A DNA stretch of 64,000 nucleotides from Williamsia faeni (GTDB taxonomy: Bacteria > Actinomycetota > Actinomycetes > Mycobacteriales > Mycobacteriaceae): contig QJJF01000001.1 of the NCBI GenBank assembly GCA_003202005.1, positions 713,099 through 777,098 of the forward strand, in the 5' to 3' direction. Position 1 is the stretch's first letter. Every line of letters begins with the position of its first letter. The translations under genes were made by a program, and so were the position numbers. Below are positions 29,017 to 38,113 of this stretch, piece after piece. The notes below the pieces were generated by a model. The model was not told the origin of the DNA. It did no database searches and worked only from the letters and a program-made list of their open reading frames with translations.

Positions 29017-29691
29017 TCATTCCGGTTCGGTGTCGAGCCCGTGTTCGATGGCATAGCGGGTCAGCTCGACGCGGTTACCGAGCTGCAGCTTCCGCAGCGT
29101 CGCCTGGACGTGGTTCTCCACGGTGCGATGACTCAGGGTGAGCTTCGACGCAATCTGCTTGGCGCTCAATCCTTTTGCAACGTACCGCAACACCTCGGTC
29201 TCCCGGTCGGTGAGCGCCGGTGCATCACCGGCGCGGCCCGGGTCGCGGGCAATGCGCCGGTACTCGCCCAGCACCAGACCGGCCAGCCCCGGGGTGAACA
29301 CCGCTTGCCCCGCTGCCGTCGCCCGGACCGCCGCCAGCAGTTCCTCCTTGGACGCACTCTTGACCAGATATCCGCCGGCGCCCGCCTTGACCGCCTCGAG
29401 CACGTCGTCACGCTCGTCAGAGGCCGAGAGCACCAGGACCCGCGTGCGGGGCGAGACCTCGAGGATCCCGACCGTCGCCTGGGCCCCGTTGCCGTCAGGC
29501 AGCTGCATGTCCATGAGCACCACATCCGGCTGCACCGCACGCCCACGGGCGGTCGCGGCGGCCACGCTGTCGGCAACGGCCACGACGTCGAAACCCGCGT
29601 CGGCCAGATCGCGAGCCACGCCGTCCCGCCACATCGGGTGGTCGTCGACCACCATCACCCGCAACACCGCCGGATCTCCCGCATCGGCCAT
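29017..29691 (-). CDS. NarL/LuxR-family response regulator (MacR-like)
   Basis: A 224-residue regulator. The receiver domain has VMVVDDHPMW, the phospho-accepting Asp in VVLMDMQLPDG and the conserved Lys in YLVKSASKEE. The C-terminal LuxR helix-turn-helix reads LTDRETEVLRYVAKGLSAKQIASKL then SHRTVENHVQ. The start is ATG 29691, which overlaps the kinase stop by one base (TGATG); the frame extends upstream without support. It is the partner of the kinase at 29691-30884. Confidence 0.92.
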   Translation of the reverse strand: MADAGDPAVLRVMVVDDHPMWRDGVARDLADAGFDVVAVADSVAAATARGRAVQPDVVLMDMQLPDGNGAQATVGILEVSPRTRVLVLSASDERDDVLEAVKAGAGGYLVKSASKEELLAAVRATAAGQAVFTPGLAGLVLGEYRRIARDPGRAGDAPALTDRETEVLRYVAKGLSAKQIASKLTLSHRTVENHVQATLRKLQLGNRVELTRYAIEHGLDTEPE

Positions 29692-30884
29692 CAGCCGCGT
29701 ACCTCCCCGTTCCTGTTGCCCGCATGCTTCGACACCGTGAGCTCCCATTCGGTTCCCTCGCCGGGCCCGGTGTCGAGCTTTGCCGTACCGCCGAGGGCCT
29801 CGATCCGCTCCACGATCGACCTCGACACACCCATGCGGCCCTGAGCCCTCGCCTCACGGAGCCGACCGTCCTCGATCCCGGATCCGTCGTCTCGAACGCT
29901 CACCAGAACCTGATCACCGAGGTCTTCGACGAGCACATAGGTCCGCGCCCCGGTCCCGGCATGCAGGCGGACATTGTCGAGCGCGTTGACCACTGCGGCT
30001 TCCAGTTCCATCGCCCGAAAGTGGTCCAGCAGCACCGGTTCTCCCGGTTCGCTGATCGTCACCAGATCGTCGGCATGGGGCCGCAGCAACATGCGCAGAT
30101 CCACGTCGGCGGCCTTCTGATCGGTCAACGGCGGTTCGATGTCGGCGATCAGCCGGCGAAGTGAACGCTCCTGTTCACCGGCCATCCGGGCCAGTTGTGC
30201 CGTCTCGCCACCGATCTCGGCGCCGCGCCTGCTGATCAGTGCAAGCACCTGCAGAACCCCGTCGTGCACCTGTCTGCTGAGACGATCCCGTTCCGATGCC
30301 GCCGCGGCAAGCCGCAGCGCGCGGGTGATCCGGTCATGGTTGCGACGAGCGGCCTGGGCGGCCAATCCCACCCCGATGCCCACCGCCAACAATACGACGA
30401 CGGTGGCGTCCCGGCCGACGTTCAGGTCATAGCCACCCTTGGCCACCGCGCTGGCCGCGCGAACCGCGAGAGCGAACCCGGCGCCCACCACCGGACCACT
30501 CAGTATCGCCGCGGAGACAACCGAATTGGTTGCCCACAACGTCGTCGGGAACGACTGGTTGTCCGCGGCCCACTGCGGCGAGGCCAACCACGGGGTCACG
30601 AGGATCAGGCCGCAGGCGATCGCCAGATCCATGCCGACCCAGAGCCGGCGGCGCCCGGGGCCTTTCAGGTACAAGATGGTGCTGACACCCGTCCACAGCG
30701 TCAGCAGCGCGAAGAAGAACCAGCTCCATCCGACCCGTTCGTAGTCGTCGTGGACTGCGAGCTGAAAACCCAGGGCGTAGAGGTAACTCAGCAGACGAAA
30801 GACCTGCGCGGCCCGCCACAGCGGACCCACCGGGTCATCGTCGGTGTCCGCGGATCGTCCAGGAACGCTCAAGGATCGGGTCAC
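29691..30884 (-). CDS. MacS-like sensor histidine kinase
   Basis: A 397-residue membrane kinase. About six hydrophobic segments occupy residues 25-178, followed by a HisKA_3 dimerisation helix with the phospho-His in RLSRQVHDGVLQ (His207). The HATPase domain has ALDNVRLHAG (N box, with Asn and His) and VSVRDDGSGIED (G1), and the G2 part MGVSRSIVERIEALGG. The PLWRAAQVFRLLSYLYALGF start is like that of the MacS family. It should autophosphorylate and pass phosphate to the regulator downstream. It begins 10 bases after the AI-2E-type gene, so the four genes 32157 to 26970 may be one transcript. The signal is unknown. Confidence 0.9.
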   Translation of the reverse strand: MTRSLSVPGRSADTDDDPVGPLWRAAQVFRLLSYLYALGFQLAVHDDYERVGWSWFFFALLTLWTGVSTILYLKGPGRRRLWVGMDLAIACGLILVTPWLASPQWAADNQSFPTTLWATNSVVSAAILSGPVVGAGFALAVRAASAVAKGGYDLNVGRDATVVVLLAVGIGVGLAAQAARRNHDRITRALRLAAAASERDRLSRQVHDGVLQVLALISRRGAEIGGETAQLARMAGEQERSLRRLIADIEPPLTDQKAADVDLRMLLRPHADDLVTISEPGEPVLLDHFRAMELEAAVVNALDNVRLHAGTGARTYVLVEDLGDQVLVSVRDDGSGIEDGRLREARAQGRMGVSRSIVERIEALGGTAKLDTGPGEGTEWELTVSKHAGNRNGEVRG

Positions 30885-30894
30885 GGAAGTGTTC

Positions 30895-32157
30895 TCAGCC
30901 GGAATCGCCGTTGTTGTCCTGCTTACTATCCGGCGACTGATCCCTCTTGTCGGGGGCGTCGTCTTCGTCCCACTTCGGCCGATCCGGACTGGCCTCGTAC
31001 ATCCGCTCGTGTTCGTGCAGGGCGACCGCGGCGTATTCCGCGAGTTCCGGATCAGATTCGGTCAGGTGAGATTTGGCGACCAATGTCCGCACCGCGGTGT
31101 TCAGGAACGCAATGATCGGGACCGCCAGCAGACCACCGACGATGCCGGCGGTGACAATCCCCGCGGCGATGGCGATCACAACAGCAACGGGATGCAACCG
31201 CACCGAACGACCAAGCAAGAACGGCTGGAGGACATGGCTTTCGAGCTGCATCACCGCCACCACCACGGCAAGCGCAATAAGTGCGACAACCCAACCCTGG
31301 GTCACCAGCGCAACCACCACGGCCAGGCCACCGGTGGCCAGGGCACCGACTATCGGGATGAATGCACCGATGAAAACCAGGGAGGCCAGTGGTAATGCCA
31401 AGGGAACCTGCAGGATCGCCAGACCAACACCGATGCCGATTGCATCCACGGCTGCCACGACAACTGTTGCCCGCACATATCCGACCAGGGTCCCGAATCC
31501 GTTGTGTCCTGCCTCCCAGACCTTTTCGCGGGCGTTCATAGGAATCGCCAGGGTCAGGAAGCGCCAGATCTGACCCCCGCCATAAAGGAAGAAGATCATC
31601 AAGAACAGCATCAGGAGCCCACCGGTGACGATTTCGCTGACCGTCGTGGCCGTCGACAGCGCACCGGAGGTCACATTGTCCTGGTTGTTTTTCAAGACGT
31701 TGATCGCGTCATCGCCGAGATGGTCGACCTGGTCTGCGGCGATGTTCAACGGCCCATCGACGAGCCAATCGCGGGTCTCGTTGATGGTCTTCTCGATCTG
31801 GTCGGTCAGTTCCGGAAGTCCATCGATGAACTGCTGCACGACAAATGCCATGATCCCGACGATCATTCCGATCGCGACCAACAACGTCCCGAACACCGCG
31901 AGCGCGCGAGGCACGCCGCGACGGTTCAGCCAATCGACCACCGGGATCAGGAATGCGGTACCCAGCACCGCGAGCCCGACCGGCACGACAACCGCTTCGT
32001 ACTCGGAGACAACCAGCGACACCGCGTACAGCCCGGCGACGATCACCAACAGTCGCCAGGACCACTCGGCCGCGGCCCGGACAACCGGATGCACGCTCAG
32101 TCGATCGGCCGTCCGGCCGTCGATCACACCGCCACTCGGGGGTTTCGGCTCGCTCAC
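30895..32157 (-). CDS. AI-2E family transporter (Rv0205-type)
   Basis: A 420-residue integral membrane protein with about seven to eight TMs and the family landmark LGTAFLIPVVDWLNRRGVPRALAV (residue block near 65-90), then the long amphipathic loop and the C-terminal LPLASLVFIGAFIPIVGA region. The tail after residue 380 is charged and acidic. AI-2E proteins include the AI-2 exporter TqsA and Na+/H+ antiporters, so the substrate is open. Divergent from the flippase-like gene at 32284. In M. tuberculosis the equivalents sit directly beside mmpL3, which supports orthology with Rv0205. Confidence 0.9.
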   Translation of the reverse strand: MSEPKPPSGGVIDGRTADRLSVHPVVRAAAEWSWRLLVIVAGLYAVSLVVSEYEAVVVPVGLAVLGTAFLIPVVDWLNRRGVPRALAVFGTLLVAIGMIVGIMAFVVQQFIDGLPELTDQIEKTINETRDWLVDGPLNIAADQVDHLGDDAINVLKNNQDNVTSGALSTATTVSEIVTGGLLMLFLMIFFLYGGGQIWRFLTLAIPMNAREKVWEAGHNGFGTLVGYVRATVVVAAVDAIGIGVGLAILQVPLALPLASLVFIGAFIPIVGALATGGLAVVVALVTQGWVVALIALAVVVAVMQLESHVLQPFLLGRSVRLHPVAVVIAIAAGIVTAGIVGGLLAVPIIAFLNTAVRTLVAKSHLTESDPELAEYAAVALHEHERMYEASPDRPKWDEDDAPDKRDQSPDSKQDNNGDSG

Positions 32158-33889: not shown

Positions 33890-34639
33890 ATGACGACCTA
33901 TCTGATCACCGGAGCCACCGGCCAGATCGGCACTCCCACCACCGCAGCGCTACGAGCCGACGGCCACGATGTGCGCGCACTGAGCCGGCGTCGCGGGCCG
34001 GGTCTGGTCACCGGTGACCTGATGAGCGGTACCGGTATCGGCGCCGCGATGGCCGGCGTCGACACCGTCATCCATCTCGCAACCACAAACGGCGCCAAAG
34101 ACATTCAAGTCGCGAAGAACCTGTTCGCGGCGGCGGCGAGCGCCCACGTCCGCCATGTCGTCCTGCTTTCGATCGTGGGCATCGACAAGATCCCGATGGG
34201 CTTCTACAAACAGCGTCTCGCAATCGAATCCCTGGCAACAGCGTCGGGGGTGCCGTTGACCCTGCAACGATCAACGCAATTTCATCCGTTTGTCGACACC
34301 TTGTTCAGCGCCCAGCGTTTCCTGCCGTTGGTCATCGCCCCGTCGATCCGGTTTCAGCCGATCGCAACACAAGACGTCGCGGCCCGGCTGGTGACACTCG
34401 CCGCCGGTGAACCGTCGGGCCGGGTCGACGATATCGGTGGTCCGGAGCAACGGACCACGGCCGATCTGCTCGCCGTCTGGAAGAAGGCCAAGGGATCTCG
34501 ACGGCCCGCCCTGCCGCTACGGCTCCCGGGAAAACTGTTCAAGGCATTCGCCGCCGGCAATAACCTCGTACCCGGAACACCGTTCGGGCACGAGACATTC
34601 GATCAGTACGTCGCGCAGAAGTATCACAGCGGCCGGTGA
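33890..34639 (+). CDS. NAD(P)-binding NmrA/SDR-type protein
   Basis: A 249-residue atypical short-chain dehydrogenase: YLITGATGQIGTPTTAAL is the glycine-rich NAD(P) motif, VDTVIHLATTNG the second strand, HVVLLSIVGIDK and FYKQRLAIESLATASG the middle, with a Tyr-x3-Lys-like FYKQR instead of a clear catalytic YxxxK. This fits NmrA-like or NAD(P)H-quinone-sensing proteins better than a classical SDR. The substrate is unknown. The start ATG has AAAGGA 8 bases ahead. Its end overlaps the convergent TetR gene by 16 bases. Confidence 0.88.
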   Translation: MTTYLITGATGQIGTPTTAALRADGHDVRALSRRRGPGLVTGDLMSGTGIGAAMAGVDTVIHLATTNGAKDIQVAKNLFAAAASAHVRHVVLLSIVGIDKIPMGFYKQRLAIESLATASGVPLTLQRSTQFHPFVDTLFSAQRFLPLVIAPSIRFQPIATQDVAARLVTLAAGEPSGRVDDIGGPEQRTTADLLAVWKKAKGSRRPALPLRLPGKLFKAFAAGNNLVPGTPFGHETFDQYVAQKYHSGR

Positions 34640-35259
34640 CCGACCGCATCCCGCGCGACGGCCTGGTAGCGCGCGATCACGTCCGCTTCGCTGGCCGGAC
34701 CATCGCGCCGGAACCACATCGCAACGGCGGTACAAGCGGTGACCACGAATCGTGACGCCTCCACCGGGTTCTGCGTGGTGAACGCACCACGCCGGACACC
34801 GTCGTCGATGACCCTGTCGAAAATGCGTTGCTGCGCATCACGATTGGCAATCACCCGTTCGAGCGCGACCGCGTCGAGGCTGCGCAGTTCGGAGTTTCCG
34901 ATATAGCTCTCCATCGGGTTCTGCGCGTGGACGCCGACGTGGGTGCTGACGATCGCATCGAGGCGGGCGGCCGGTTCCGCGGGCGCGTCCAGCAGAGCCC
35001 GTTCGGTGGCCTCGACCAGCGCAGAGCCACCACGGACCAGAATCGTCACCAGCAGTTCGTGTTTGGATCCGAAGTGGTTGTAGATCGAACCCGGACTGAT
35101 ACCGGCGAACGTCGCGATGTCCCGGATCGACGTGCCGTGGTAGCCGCGGGCCGCGATCATCTGGACCGCCGCGCTGAGGATGGCCCGGGCCGTCGGGTCG
35201 TCTCCCTCGCGGATCGCGGCAGTGGTGAATGCCCGGGCACCCTCATCGGCGTTGGCCAT
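34624..35259 (-). CDS. TetR-family regulator
   Basis: A 211-residue repressor with an N-terminal TetR helix-turn-helix (AAVQMIAARGYHGTSIRDIA, then GISPGSIYNHFGSKHELL) and a C-terminal helical ligand domain with a C-terminal domain of the KstR2/FadR-like sort. It is divergent from the acyl-CoA dehydrogenase operon. Three copies of TGAACRRTYGATCA lie in the gap, one of them 27 bases upstream of its own ATG, so autoregulation and control of the operon are both likely. The ligand is probably an acyl-CoA of the pathway, by analogy with other regulators beside fadE-type genes. Confidence 0.9.
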   Translation of the reverse strand: MANADEGARAFTTAAIREGDDPTARAILSAAVQMIAARGYHGTSIRDIATFAGISPGSIYNHFGSKHELLVTILVRGGSALVEATERALLDAPAEPAARLDAIVSTHVGVHAQNPMESYIGNSELRSLDAVALERVIANRDAQQRIFDRVIDDGVRRGAFTTQNPVEASRFVVTACTAVAMWFRRDGPASEADVIARYQAVARDAVGHRPL

Positions 35260-35360: not shown

Positions 35361-35440
35361 TTACTGCAGTACAGCGGGTAATTCTCGCAGCCTCGGTGAA
35401 TTCGGCTGCGGACATTACCCGATACCCGCTACGGTCGCTC

Positions 35441-35483: not shown

Positions 35484-36755
35484 GTGGACTACGCCGTACC
35501 CGAGGCGATCACCACCACCCTGCGTGAGATCGATGAGTTCATCGACACGCAGATCCGGCCACTGCAGGAGGCCGATGACAACATCCGTTTCTTCGATCAC
35601 CGCCGCGAATGGGCGCGCACCGATTTCGAGGGCGGTGGCGTGCCGCGCCGGGACTGGGAAGAGCTGCTCGGTCAGATGCGCCGGCTCGCCGACGACGCCG
35701 GCTGGTTACGCTACGCGCTGCCCACCGACATCGGTGGACGCGGGGGCACCAATTTCGATATGGCGATCATCCGGGAACACCTGGCGCACAAGGGACTCGG
35801 GCTGCACAACGACTTGCAGAACGAGTCGTCGATCGTCGGAAACTTCCCCTTTGCCCACATGTTGCTCGCCTATGGCACCACAGAACAGCAGGACGAATTC
35901 CTCGAGCCGATGATCCGCGGCGAGGCCCGGATCGGGTTCGGGCTGACCGAACCCGATCACGGCAGTGACGCCACCTGGATGGAAACCACTGCCCGCAAAG
36001 TGGGCGATTCGTGGATCATCAACGGCGGCAAACGATTCAATTCGGGCATGCACAACGCCACACACGATGTGGTGTTCGCGCGCACGTCGGGCAAAGACGG
36101 TGACGCCAGAGGGATCACCGCGTTCTTCGTACCCACCGACGCCCCGGGATTCTCCGTCGATTTCCAATGGTGGACCTTCAACATGCCCACCGACCACGCC
36201 GAGGTCACCATCACCGACATCGAGGTTCCGGATTCGGCGATCTTCGGGATGGAGGGCGAAGGTCTGGCGGTGGCGCAGACTTTTGTGCACGAGAACCGCA
36301 TTCGACAGGCGGCCTCGGGGGTCGGCGCAGCTCAGTTCTGCATCGACCGCAGCGTCGAATATGCCCGGGAAAGAATAACTTTCGGGGCGCCACTGTCGAG
36401 CCGCCAGGCAATTCAGTTCCCCCTCGTCGAGCTGCACACCGAGGCGGAGATGGTCCGCGGACTGGTCCGTAAGACCGCCTGGGAGATGGACCGGATCCCG
36501 CACCTGGAGATCAGCGATCGGGTCTCGATGTGCAACTACCGCGCCAACAGGCTGGTCTGCGACGCCGCCGACCAGGCCATCCAGGTGCACGGCGGTATGG
36601 GTTACACCCGGCACATGCCCTTCGAGCACATCTACCGCCATCACCGCCGGTACCGGATCACCGAGGGGTCCGACGAGGTACAGATCCGCAAGATCGCCGG
36701 CTATCTGTTCGGATACGCCGGACCGCGGCGCATCCGGAAGAAGGACCAGAACTGA
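35484..36755 (+). CDS. Acyl-CoA dehydrogenase family protein, paired with a kinase (LvaC/ACAD11-like)
   Basis: A 423-residue FAD-dependent acyl-CoA dehydrogenase. FGLTEPDHGSDATWMETTA (flavin/substrate binding), the middle beta domain, AIQVHGGMGYTRHMPFEHIYR and the TEGSDEVQIRKIAGYL end with the likely catalytic Glu394 are all present. The sequence style (HGGMGYTRHMPFEHIYRHHRRYRITEG is residues near 370-395) is that of the ACAD10/11-type rather than FadE beta-oxidation enzymes. I set the start at GTG 35484 with GGGAAGGA ahead; a TTG upstream at 35448 falls in the operator. The stop overlaps the kinase ATG by one base. Known relatives use phosphorylated 4-hydroxyacyl-CoA and eliminate phosphate to give enoyl-CoA; that activity is inferred here. 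Confidence 0.9.
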   Translation: MDYAVPEAITTTLREIDEFIDTQIRPLQEADDNIRFFDHRREWARTDFEGGGVPRRDWEELLGQMRRLADDAGWLRYALPTDIGGRGGTNFDMAIIREHLAHKGLGLHNDLQNESSIVGNFPFAHMLLAYGTTEQQDEFLEPMIRGEARIGFGLTEPDHGSDATWMETTARKVGDSWIINGGKRFNSGMHNATHDVVFARTSGKDGDARGITAFFVPTDAPGFSVDFQWWTFNMPTDHAEVTITDIEVPDSAIFGMEGEGLAVAQTFVHENRIRQAASGVGAAQFCIDRSVEYARERITFGAPLSSRQAIQFPLVELHTEAEMVRGLVRKTAWEMDRIPHLEISDRVSMCNYRANRLVCDAADQAIQVHGGMGYTRHMPFEHIYRHHRRYRITEGSDEVQIRKIAGYLFGYAGPRRIRKKDQN

Positions 36756-38113
36756 TGCCGGACAGCGACATCGGCGACCTCCTCGCCGCGCGATTGGGTG
36801 TGGTCTTCGGCGACGACGTCCGGGTCGAGGATCTTCGCCGGCTCACCGCCGGTGCCAACAGCGAAACCTGGTCATTTCGTTGCCATCGCGGAACCGAGGT
36901 GCAGCGGCTGATCCTGCGCCGCCAGCCCGACTCGGTACACGGACCACTCGGTATGACCCGCGAATCCGAGGCGATCTCGGCCGCGGCCGAGGCCGGTGTC
37001 CCGGTGCCCCGGGTGATCGACTTCTCCGACGACACCGACGCGCTCGGCGCCCCCTATCTGGTCTGCGACCACATCGACGGCGAATCGATCCCGCGAAAAC
37101 TGTTGCGCGACGACCGCTACGCGCAGGCTCGCAAGGGCATGGCTGCCGAACTCGGCCGCAACCTCGCCCGGATCCACTCGATTCCGCTGTCGGCGGTACC
37201 CGCGCTGCAGACCGGGTCGCGCAGCGGACTCGACGAACTGCGGCAGTCCTATCTCCACCTCGACACACCCTCGGCGGTCACCGAGATCGCATTGGCCGCG
37301 CTGTCGATGTACCAACCCGAGCCGGTGCCCGAGACTGTCGTACACGGCGACTTCCGCAACGGGAACCTGCTGATCTCCGACACCGGGCTCGGTGCGGTCC
37401 TGGACTGGGAGCTCACCCACATCGGCGATCCGCGTGAGGATCTCGGCTGGTTGCTCGTCAAGTGCTGGCGATTCGGGACCGCACCGGAGGTCGGTGGATT
37501 CGGCACCGTCGACGAACTACTCGACGGCTACGCCGAAGTCGCCGGAACGCGACCGGACATCGAGGCGGTGCGCTGGTGGCAGCTGTATCGCACCGTGTGG
37601 TGGAGCATCGTGTGCGCGCAGATGGCGTCGCGGCACCTGTCCGGCGCGCATCGTTCGGTCGAACTCGCTGCCATCGGCCGGCGGGTGTGCGAACAGGAGC
37701 ACGACATCCTGCTGGCGCTCGGCCGCCCGGCCACCGCAATCGCGGAGCCACCGGCGAAAGTCACGGAACCAGGCCTCCACGGACGTCCCACAGCTGCCGA
37801 ATTGGTCAACGCCGTGGCGGAATGGTTGCGCACCACCGTGATGTCCGACGCGGCGACCGGTTCGACCAGGTTCGAAGCCCGTGTCGCGGCCAACGTGCTC
37901 GACATCGTCGAGCGTGAATTGGCCGCCGGCGACGCAGCCCTGGACCGGCAGCACGCCGCTCTGGCAGAGCTGGGCTTCGACTCCGAGACCGATCTGGCAC
38001 TGGAGCTCCGGGCCGGGAGAGCCAACCCTCAAGATCCACGGATCATCGCAGTGGTCCGGGCGGCCGTCACCGAACGCCTGCTGGTCGCCAATCCGCGATA
38101 TCTGGAGCAGTAG
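36755..38113 (+). CDS. APH-family phosphotransferase with C-terminal helical domain (LvaA-like, possibly fused to LvaB-type partner)
   Basis: A 452-residue protein. The APH kinase fold covers about residues 1-335: RRLTAGANSETWSF (P-loop), RLILRRQP (Lys position occupied by Arg), VVHGDFRNGNLLI (Brenner motif, Asp199, Asn204) and VLDWELTHIGDP (metal Asp217). Residues 343-452 are a separate helical domain with PTAAELVNAVAEWL and RFEARVAANVLDIVERELAAG, which I associate with DUF6285. In Pseudomonas levulinate catabolism LvaA kinase phosphorylates 4-hydroxyacyl-CoA and needs a small partner, LvaB; the fused domain here has about that size. It is coupled to the acyl-CoA dehydrogenase (TGATG). It is not an aminoglycoside resistance gene. 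Confidence 0.85.
   Translation: MPDSDIGDLLAARLGVVFGDDVRVEDLRRLTAGANSETWSFRCHRGTEVQRLILRRQPDSVHGPLGMTRESEAISAAAEAGVPVPRVIDFSDDTDALGAPYLVCDHIDGESIPRKLLRDDRYAQARKGMAAELGRNLARIHSIPLSAVPALQTGSRSGLDELRQSYLHLDTPSAVTEIALAALSMYQPEPVPETVVHGDFRNGNLLISDTGLGAVLDWELTHIGDPREDLGWLLVKCWRFGTAPEVGGFGTVDELLDGYAEVAGTRPDIEAVRWWQLYRTVWWSIVCAQMASRHLSGAHRSVELAAIGRRVCEQEHDILLALGRPATAIAEPPAKVTEPGLHGRPTAAELVNAVAEWLRTTVMSDAATGSTRFEARVAANVLDIVERELAAGDAALDRQHAALAELGFDSETDLALELRAGRANPQDPRIIAVVRAAVTERLLVANPRYLEQ

Follow-up and report, generated by a model that had tools for sequence, protein, structure and literature searches.

Dehydrogenase and kinase genes in the window

We analysed a stretch of 64,000 nucleotides from Williamsia faeni (assembly GCA_003202005.1, contig QJJF01000001.1, positions 713,099 to 777,098 of the forward strand), referred to below as the window; coordinates without a prefix are positions within it. 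The subject is a pair of overlapping plus-strand genes, one for an acyl-CoA dehydrogenase (ACAD) and one for a kinase fused to a DUF6285 domain. The first gene (35484..36755) was assigned by Pfam, alignments and residue reading to a Glu-type, here called E-type, of ACAD. The second (36755..38113) encodes 452 amino acids, and its start codon (ATG, 36755-36757) shares one base with the ACAD stop codon (TGA, 36753-36755). The ACAD start was placed at GTG 35484, in keeping with the family alignment; the mechanical open reading frame (ORF) begins 36 bases earlier, at TTG 35448. An earlier sequence-only reading of this DNA had described an ACAD overlapped by an APH-fold kinase, and the ORFs and Pfam matches agreed with it. 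The residues that it had singled out, Glu394 of the dehydrogenase and HGDFRNGN (197-204) and Asp217 of the kinase, were likewise found on residue reading. The order of an ACAD gene followed by a kinase gene fused to DUF6285 was found in all nine genomes of the genus examined, the window's own included, and is therefore no chance reading.

The kinase domain (residues 36-269, 36860..37561, plus strand) matched the APH family (PF01636) in Pfam at 1e-34. It was 36% identical to LvaA, the kinase of the Pseudomonas lva operon, over 324 amino acids. The catalytic set was present, with HGDFRNGN fitting HxDxxxxN and Asp217 as the second aspartate. These four residues (His, Asp, Asn and Asp) were intact in 60 of 60 DUF6285-linked kinases adjoining an E-type ACAD.

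The C-terminal tail (residues 366-449, 37850..38101, plus strand) matched DUF6285 (PF19802) at 1.3e-21, with 77.5 bits against a cut-off of 28.1. The proposal that an LvaB-type partner is fused to the kinase was supported by this match, because the tail and LvaB share DUF6285. Our reference was the complete lva operon on the P. aeruginosa plasmid p12939-PER (locus L163), in which one product is annotated as 4-hydroxypentanoyl-CoA kinase subunit LvaB. Its genes are prpR, a phosphotransferase, lvaB, an acyl-CoA dehydrogenase, a dehydrogenase annotated as glucose 1-dehydrogenase, an acyl-CoA synthetase, a DUF485 protein and a cation acetate symporter. In Pfam, this LvaB is also DUF6285 (E = 4.8e-24). 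When a profile of 24 window-type DUF6285 domains was compared by hhalign with a profile of three sequences (LvaB and the DUF6285 proteins from L164 and L166), they aligned over 106 columns with 98.4% probability and an E-value of 4.9e-15. BLASTP of the window tail against LvaB as single sequences gave no alignment, which we did not take as decisive, given the PF19802 match of each and the alignment of the two profiles.

These comparisons support the assignment of the window kinase as a probable relative of LvaA with an LvaB/DUF6285 tail. The two systems have in common an APH kinase with the same catalytic motifs and a DUF6285 partner; they differ in that LvaB is separate from LvaA in the lva operon and fused to the kinase in the window. 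According to the available part of one report (PMC6692424), LvaB of strain KT2440 was pulled down with LvaA, and its deletion abolished growth on levulinate. The predicted activity of the window fusion is that of a hydroxyacyl-CoA kinase. The tie to LvaB would turn DUF6285, which was not found in any paper in a search of open-licence PMC literature, from an unnamed domain into a predicted subunit of such kinases.

Two types of dehydrogenase beside these kinases

The N, M and C domains of ACADs were all recognised by Pfam in the window dehydrogenase, which also has Glu394 as its acidic base, and by these features it can be placed in the ACAD superfamily. The sequence-only reading had called it ACAD11-like. 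In the available part of a study of ACAD10 and ACAD11 (PMC12440821), Arg626, His634, Arg637 and the catalytic Asp (D753 in mouse ACAD11) are described as common to ACAD10/11 and LvaC and not to other ACADs. All four are reported there to be required for the ACAD step, although R637K impaired it only partly. Replacement of the Asp by Asn abolished the ACAD activity of ACAD10/11, and non-conservative substitutions of Arg, His and Arg ablated it.

We mapped these positions through a second pair in the same genome (G000:C7, in locus L003), whose ACAD keeps all four residues. In the window ACAD, the corresponding residues are Phe267, Gln275, Ser278 and Glu394 in place of Arg626, His634, Arg637 and Asp. 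Identity to LvaC was 29%, and ACAD11 ranked only 36th among the 84 PDB matches. It shares the acyl-CoA dehydrogenase fold and the pairing with an APH kinase with LvaC and ACAD11. On the residue test, we rejected an enzyme of the LvaC/ACAD11 type, and the label "ACAD11-like" appears to be wrong, or at least unsupported. As an annotation of window-type operons, it would be wrong for the dehydrogenase part.

The same substitutions ran through the relatives. We assigned 39 ACADs to the E-type and 17 to the LvaC-type by similarity score, independently of the signature residues. In the alignment, Phe, Gln and Glu were present in all 39 E-type proteins and Ser in 38, with Gly in the remaining one, and all 17 LvaC-type proteins retained Arg, His, Arg and Asp. 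With 80 loci added later, the E-type rows came to 119 (118 distinct genes, as L020 and L080 are one place), and the pattern held across all of them with a single Gly at position 278. A basic stretch just before the base, RHHRRYR (385-391), was invariant in the 119 rows except for one Lys at 391; its conservation in the 80 added loci is partly by construction, because the peptides FEHIYRHH and RRYRITEG, not used for the other 39, served to retrieve them. Two dehydrogenase families beside such kinases can now be separated by named residues. Among the open-licence PMC papers listed, judged by titles and the beginnings of abstracts, we recognised none that deals with a kinase of this sort paired with a Glu-type ACAD.

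The E-type appears to be a sharply bounded family. In the fetched loci, its members scored 720-825 bits against their profile and the next ACAD scored 211. In a plasmid search, 12 top matches were 58-63% identical to the window ACAD and the next was 38% identical among the best 25 of 1807; the 12 came from haloarchaea, Nocardia, a Rhodobacteraceae strain and Sulfitobacter. At least 592 stretches of the genome collection encode a relative, and our sample leans to window-like members because only the best 80 were kept. By record titles, the family extends over Actinomycetota, Pseudomonadota, Acidobacteria, Tepidiforma/Anaerolinea and haloarchaea. For the LvaC-type, scores against the profile (A2) ran from about 630 to 360 bits without a clear gap among the matches listed, so in the 48 genomes discussed below this type was told by residue reading.

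The second pair lies at about 128829-131371 of G000:C7 (L003:9830-12372, minus strand). As in the window, its ACAD gene overlaps a kinase-DUF6285 fusion, and the two kinases are 41% identical over 449 amino acids. Its ACAD differs from that of the window in keeping the ACAD11 signature and in having human ACAD11 as its best PDB match. The sequence-only reading had assigned the window operon to a 4-hydroxy-acid (lactone, levulinate) pathway; the C7 operon is a better candidate for this role. Another locus with an LvaC-type ACAD is on the Thermus thermophilus HB8 plasmid pTT27 (L068), with the order ACAD, kinase, DUF6285 and histidine phosphatase. There, kinase, DUF6285 and ACAD adjoin as in the window; the kinase and DUF6285 are unfused and the ACAD is LvaC-type, whereas those of the window are fused and E-type.

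A quick tree of 107 kinases, in which the deep order was weakly supported, placed the window kinase with fused kinases adjoining E-type ACADs (7 rows; 99 in the Shimodaira-Hasegawa-like approximate likelihood ratio test, SH-aLRT). The C7 kinase clustered with kinases adjoining LvaC-type ACADs (3 rows, support 100), and LvaA fell mainly among the LvaC-adjacent kinases. By parsimony, the type of partner changed 9 times and the fused or separate state 5 times on this tree; with many weak branches, these are not firm minima. The result suggests that the LvaB domain has been fused recurrently and not just in this genome, and that over time kinases may have changed partners between the two types of dehydrogenase.

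A candidate phosphorylation-dependent module

We favour, with moderate confidence, reading the window pair as a hydroxyacyl-CoA module that depends on phosphorylation, a parallel to LvaAB and LvaC with a different dehydrogenase. The kinase, with the LvaB domain as a subunit kept in cis, would phosphorylate a hydroxyl group of an acyl-CoA, most likely at C4. Glu394 of the dehydrogenase would then abstract the C2 proton, with the C3 hydride passing to flavin adenine dinucleotide (FAD), and the phosphate would thereby leave. Because the ACAD11 pocket (Arg/His/Arg and Asp) is absent, either the phosphate would be held by other basic residues, with Arg274 and the RHHRRYR stretch as candidates, or a different hydroxy position would be used. 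The electrons could be passed on to electron transfer flavoprotein (ETF) or, as has been proposed for ACAD11, given back to the substrate. We infer these steps from the kinase product to the enoyl-CoA. The product would enter beta-oxidation; CoA ligase and enoyl-CoA hydratase genes are among the recurrent neighbours of relatives.

The co-occurrence of the E-type with DUF6285 was examined in three genome samples, each drawn around a centre genome. The family sample comprised 151 genomes and the phylum sample 246; the third, with 274 genomes, covered the class of G390, a metagenome-assembled genome titled Pseudomonadales. An E-type ACAD was found in 36, 12 and 4 of these genomes, respectively. 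All 36 were among the 47 family genomes with DUF6285, all 12 among the 21 in the phylum and all 4 among the 8 in the class. Each centre was known beforehand to have an E-type ACAD; without the centres, the numbers are 35, 11 and 3. Fisher's test gave p = 2e-25, 4e-15 and 3e-7 with the centres included and shared ancestry ignored; the family and phylum samples have genomes in common.

Physical linkage was also seen. Around DUF6285, 31 of 60 regions carried an E-type ACAD and 13 an LvaC-type; the 31 cannot alone show linkage, because the regions were chosen by DUF6285. When 80 loci were chosen by the ACAD alone, an APH gene lay within 4 kb in 32, with DUF6285 also within 4 kb in 24 of these. In the 32 loci, DUF6285 was fused in 14, separate in 10 and absent within 4 kb in 8, although in two of the last group (L109 and L112) the kinase is a fusion with its tail just beyond this limit. 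Some of the 80 loci are cut by contig ends; where 4 kb was available on both sides, APH was found in 22 of 52. The gene order varied between ACAD-APH-DUF, APH-DUF-ACAD, DUF-APH-ACAD and divergent arrangements, so the linkage is not merely descent of one block.

Several observations weigh against the module. No APH gene lay within 4 kb in 48 of the 80 ACAD-chosen loci, nor was one found within this distance of the E-type ACAD on a Rhodobacteraceae plasmid (L078). Of the 48 genomes with kinase-less loci, 41 have DUF6285 somewhere and 7 have none. In favour of the module, all 35 DUF6285 regions taken from 32 of these 41 genomes had an APH kinase nearby; two regions (L170 and L194) carry a further E-type ACAD and two (L169 and L183) an LvaC-type. 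The idea that the stand-alone kinases in these 48 genomes lack an LvaC-type partner was ruled out, as LvaC-signature ACADs were present in all 48. This count rests on 60 matches, namely the best of each genome and 12 second matches, of which 59 have the full signature. A stand-alone kinase in these genomes could therefore serve the LvaC-type enzymes, and the co-occurrence argument is weakened. In genome G030, the sole DUF6285 adjoins an LvaC-type ACAD, with the E-type ACAD on a different contig; pairs of both kinds occur in G098. At four haloarchaeal loci, the kinase is distant in sequence and the small partner has no detectable likeness to DUF6285. Lastly, the dehydrogenase, having lost the phosphate pocket, might never meet a phosphorylated substrate.

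An alternative is that the window ACAD is a conventional oxidising enzyme. It would act in the same pathway on another intermediate, before phosphorylation or after loss of the phosphate, and an LvaC-type enzyme encoded elsewhere would eliminate the phosphate. The glutamate in the usual base position and the lack of the ACAD11 pocket in 39 of 39 E-type proteins fit this alternative, as do the LvaC-type ACAD in the same genome and the LvaC-signature ACADs in each of the 48 E-type genomes checked. It does not account well for the tracking of DUF6285 by the E-type in the three samples or for the adjoining fused kinase in nine of nine genomes of the genus, and the LvaC-type gene of C7 already has a fused kinase of its own. 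On balance, we consider it rather unlikely. A kinase with a substrate other than an acyl-CoA, such as an antibiotic or a sugar, beside an incidental dehydrogenase gene is very improbable: antibiotic kinases do share the APH fold, but of the 19 NCBIfam models with a match, which include antibiotic kinases, none reached its cut-off, and the LvaB fusion and the recurrent ACAD linkage argue against it.

The E-type family may represent a second, so far undescribed class of kinase-coupled ACAD. It would remove a phosphorylated hydroxyl with a glutamate base and a new phosphate-holding site formed by Arg274 and RHHRRYR; net oxidation may be involved, or the hydroxyl may not be the one at C4. We put this forward only tentatively. 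The chemistry of LvaC and ACAD11 would then be one of two solutions, and the expulsion of phosphate by an ACAD would become a comparison of two natural active sites.

In four haloarchaeal plasmids, a conserved protein of 157-159 amino acids is encoded beside the kinase and the E-type ACAD, in the slot of DUF6285 (L074:7406-7882, L075:9287-9763, L076:9283-9753 and L079:9285-9755). No likeness to DUF6285 was detectable in the two examined by Pfam or in the four examined by profile, and its identification as DUF6285 was dropped. It is a possible kinase partner.

Neighbouring genes and substrate hints

A TetR regulator gene (TetR_N and TetR_C_24 in Pfam; 34624..35259, minus strand) is divergent from the pair. 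A possible operator, an imperfect inverted repeat with 18-nucleotide arms (83%; 35375..35421), lies between it and the ACAD gene. We rejected the repeat as a conserved operator because its exact core pattern, present once in the window, was absent from all 266 other loci. Besides TetR, the upstream neighbours encode NmrA-like, DUF3054 and LPG_synthase_TM proteins, and the downstream neighbours MecA_N, pirin and PAS-ANTAR proteins. In comparison with L163, no lvaD/E/F/G/R-type genes were found among the scanned neighbours, in line with the earlier remark that LvaD- and LvaE-type genes are not adjacent. The neighbourhood gives no reason to prefer levulinate as the substrate.

The most common neighbours at the 119 E-type loci were an AMP-binding CoA ligase (23), a family III CoA-transferase (20), TetR of the same sequence cluster as that of the window (17) and an HMGL-like lyase (16). 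These counts are approximate, since the clustering is rough: wrong-frame ORFs persist in GC-rich DNA, and one cluster looks artefactual. An acyl-CoA ligase gene separates TetR from ACAD in a sister genome (L013). Such neighbours suggest acyl-CoA catabolism of varied substrates.

In four Mycolicibacterium and Mycobacterium contigs (L143, L150, L157 and L158), genes for a family III CoA-transferase, an HMGL-like lyase and mostly also TetR lie upstream of ACAD, kinase and DUF6285. This context might indicate a branched or tertiary hydroxy substrate. Three of the four haloarchaeal loci are beside hydantoinase/oxoprolinase (acetone-carboxylase-like) genes, two of these three also beside an acetoacetate decarboxylase family gene; the fourth has neither.

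A histidine phosphatase family gene follows the kinase and DUF6285 genes in T. thermophilus pTT27 (L068:5941-7911) and in Stutzerimonas (L164:4878-8219). Such a phosphatase gene has been reported in a P. citronellolis cluster, where, according to the available part of the report, no lvaB was found (PMC6692424). Elsewhere in the window (29020-32157), genes for a DUF5931 histidine kinase and a LuxR-type response regulator lie beside an AI-2E transporter family gene, an ordinary arrangement.

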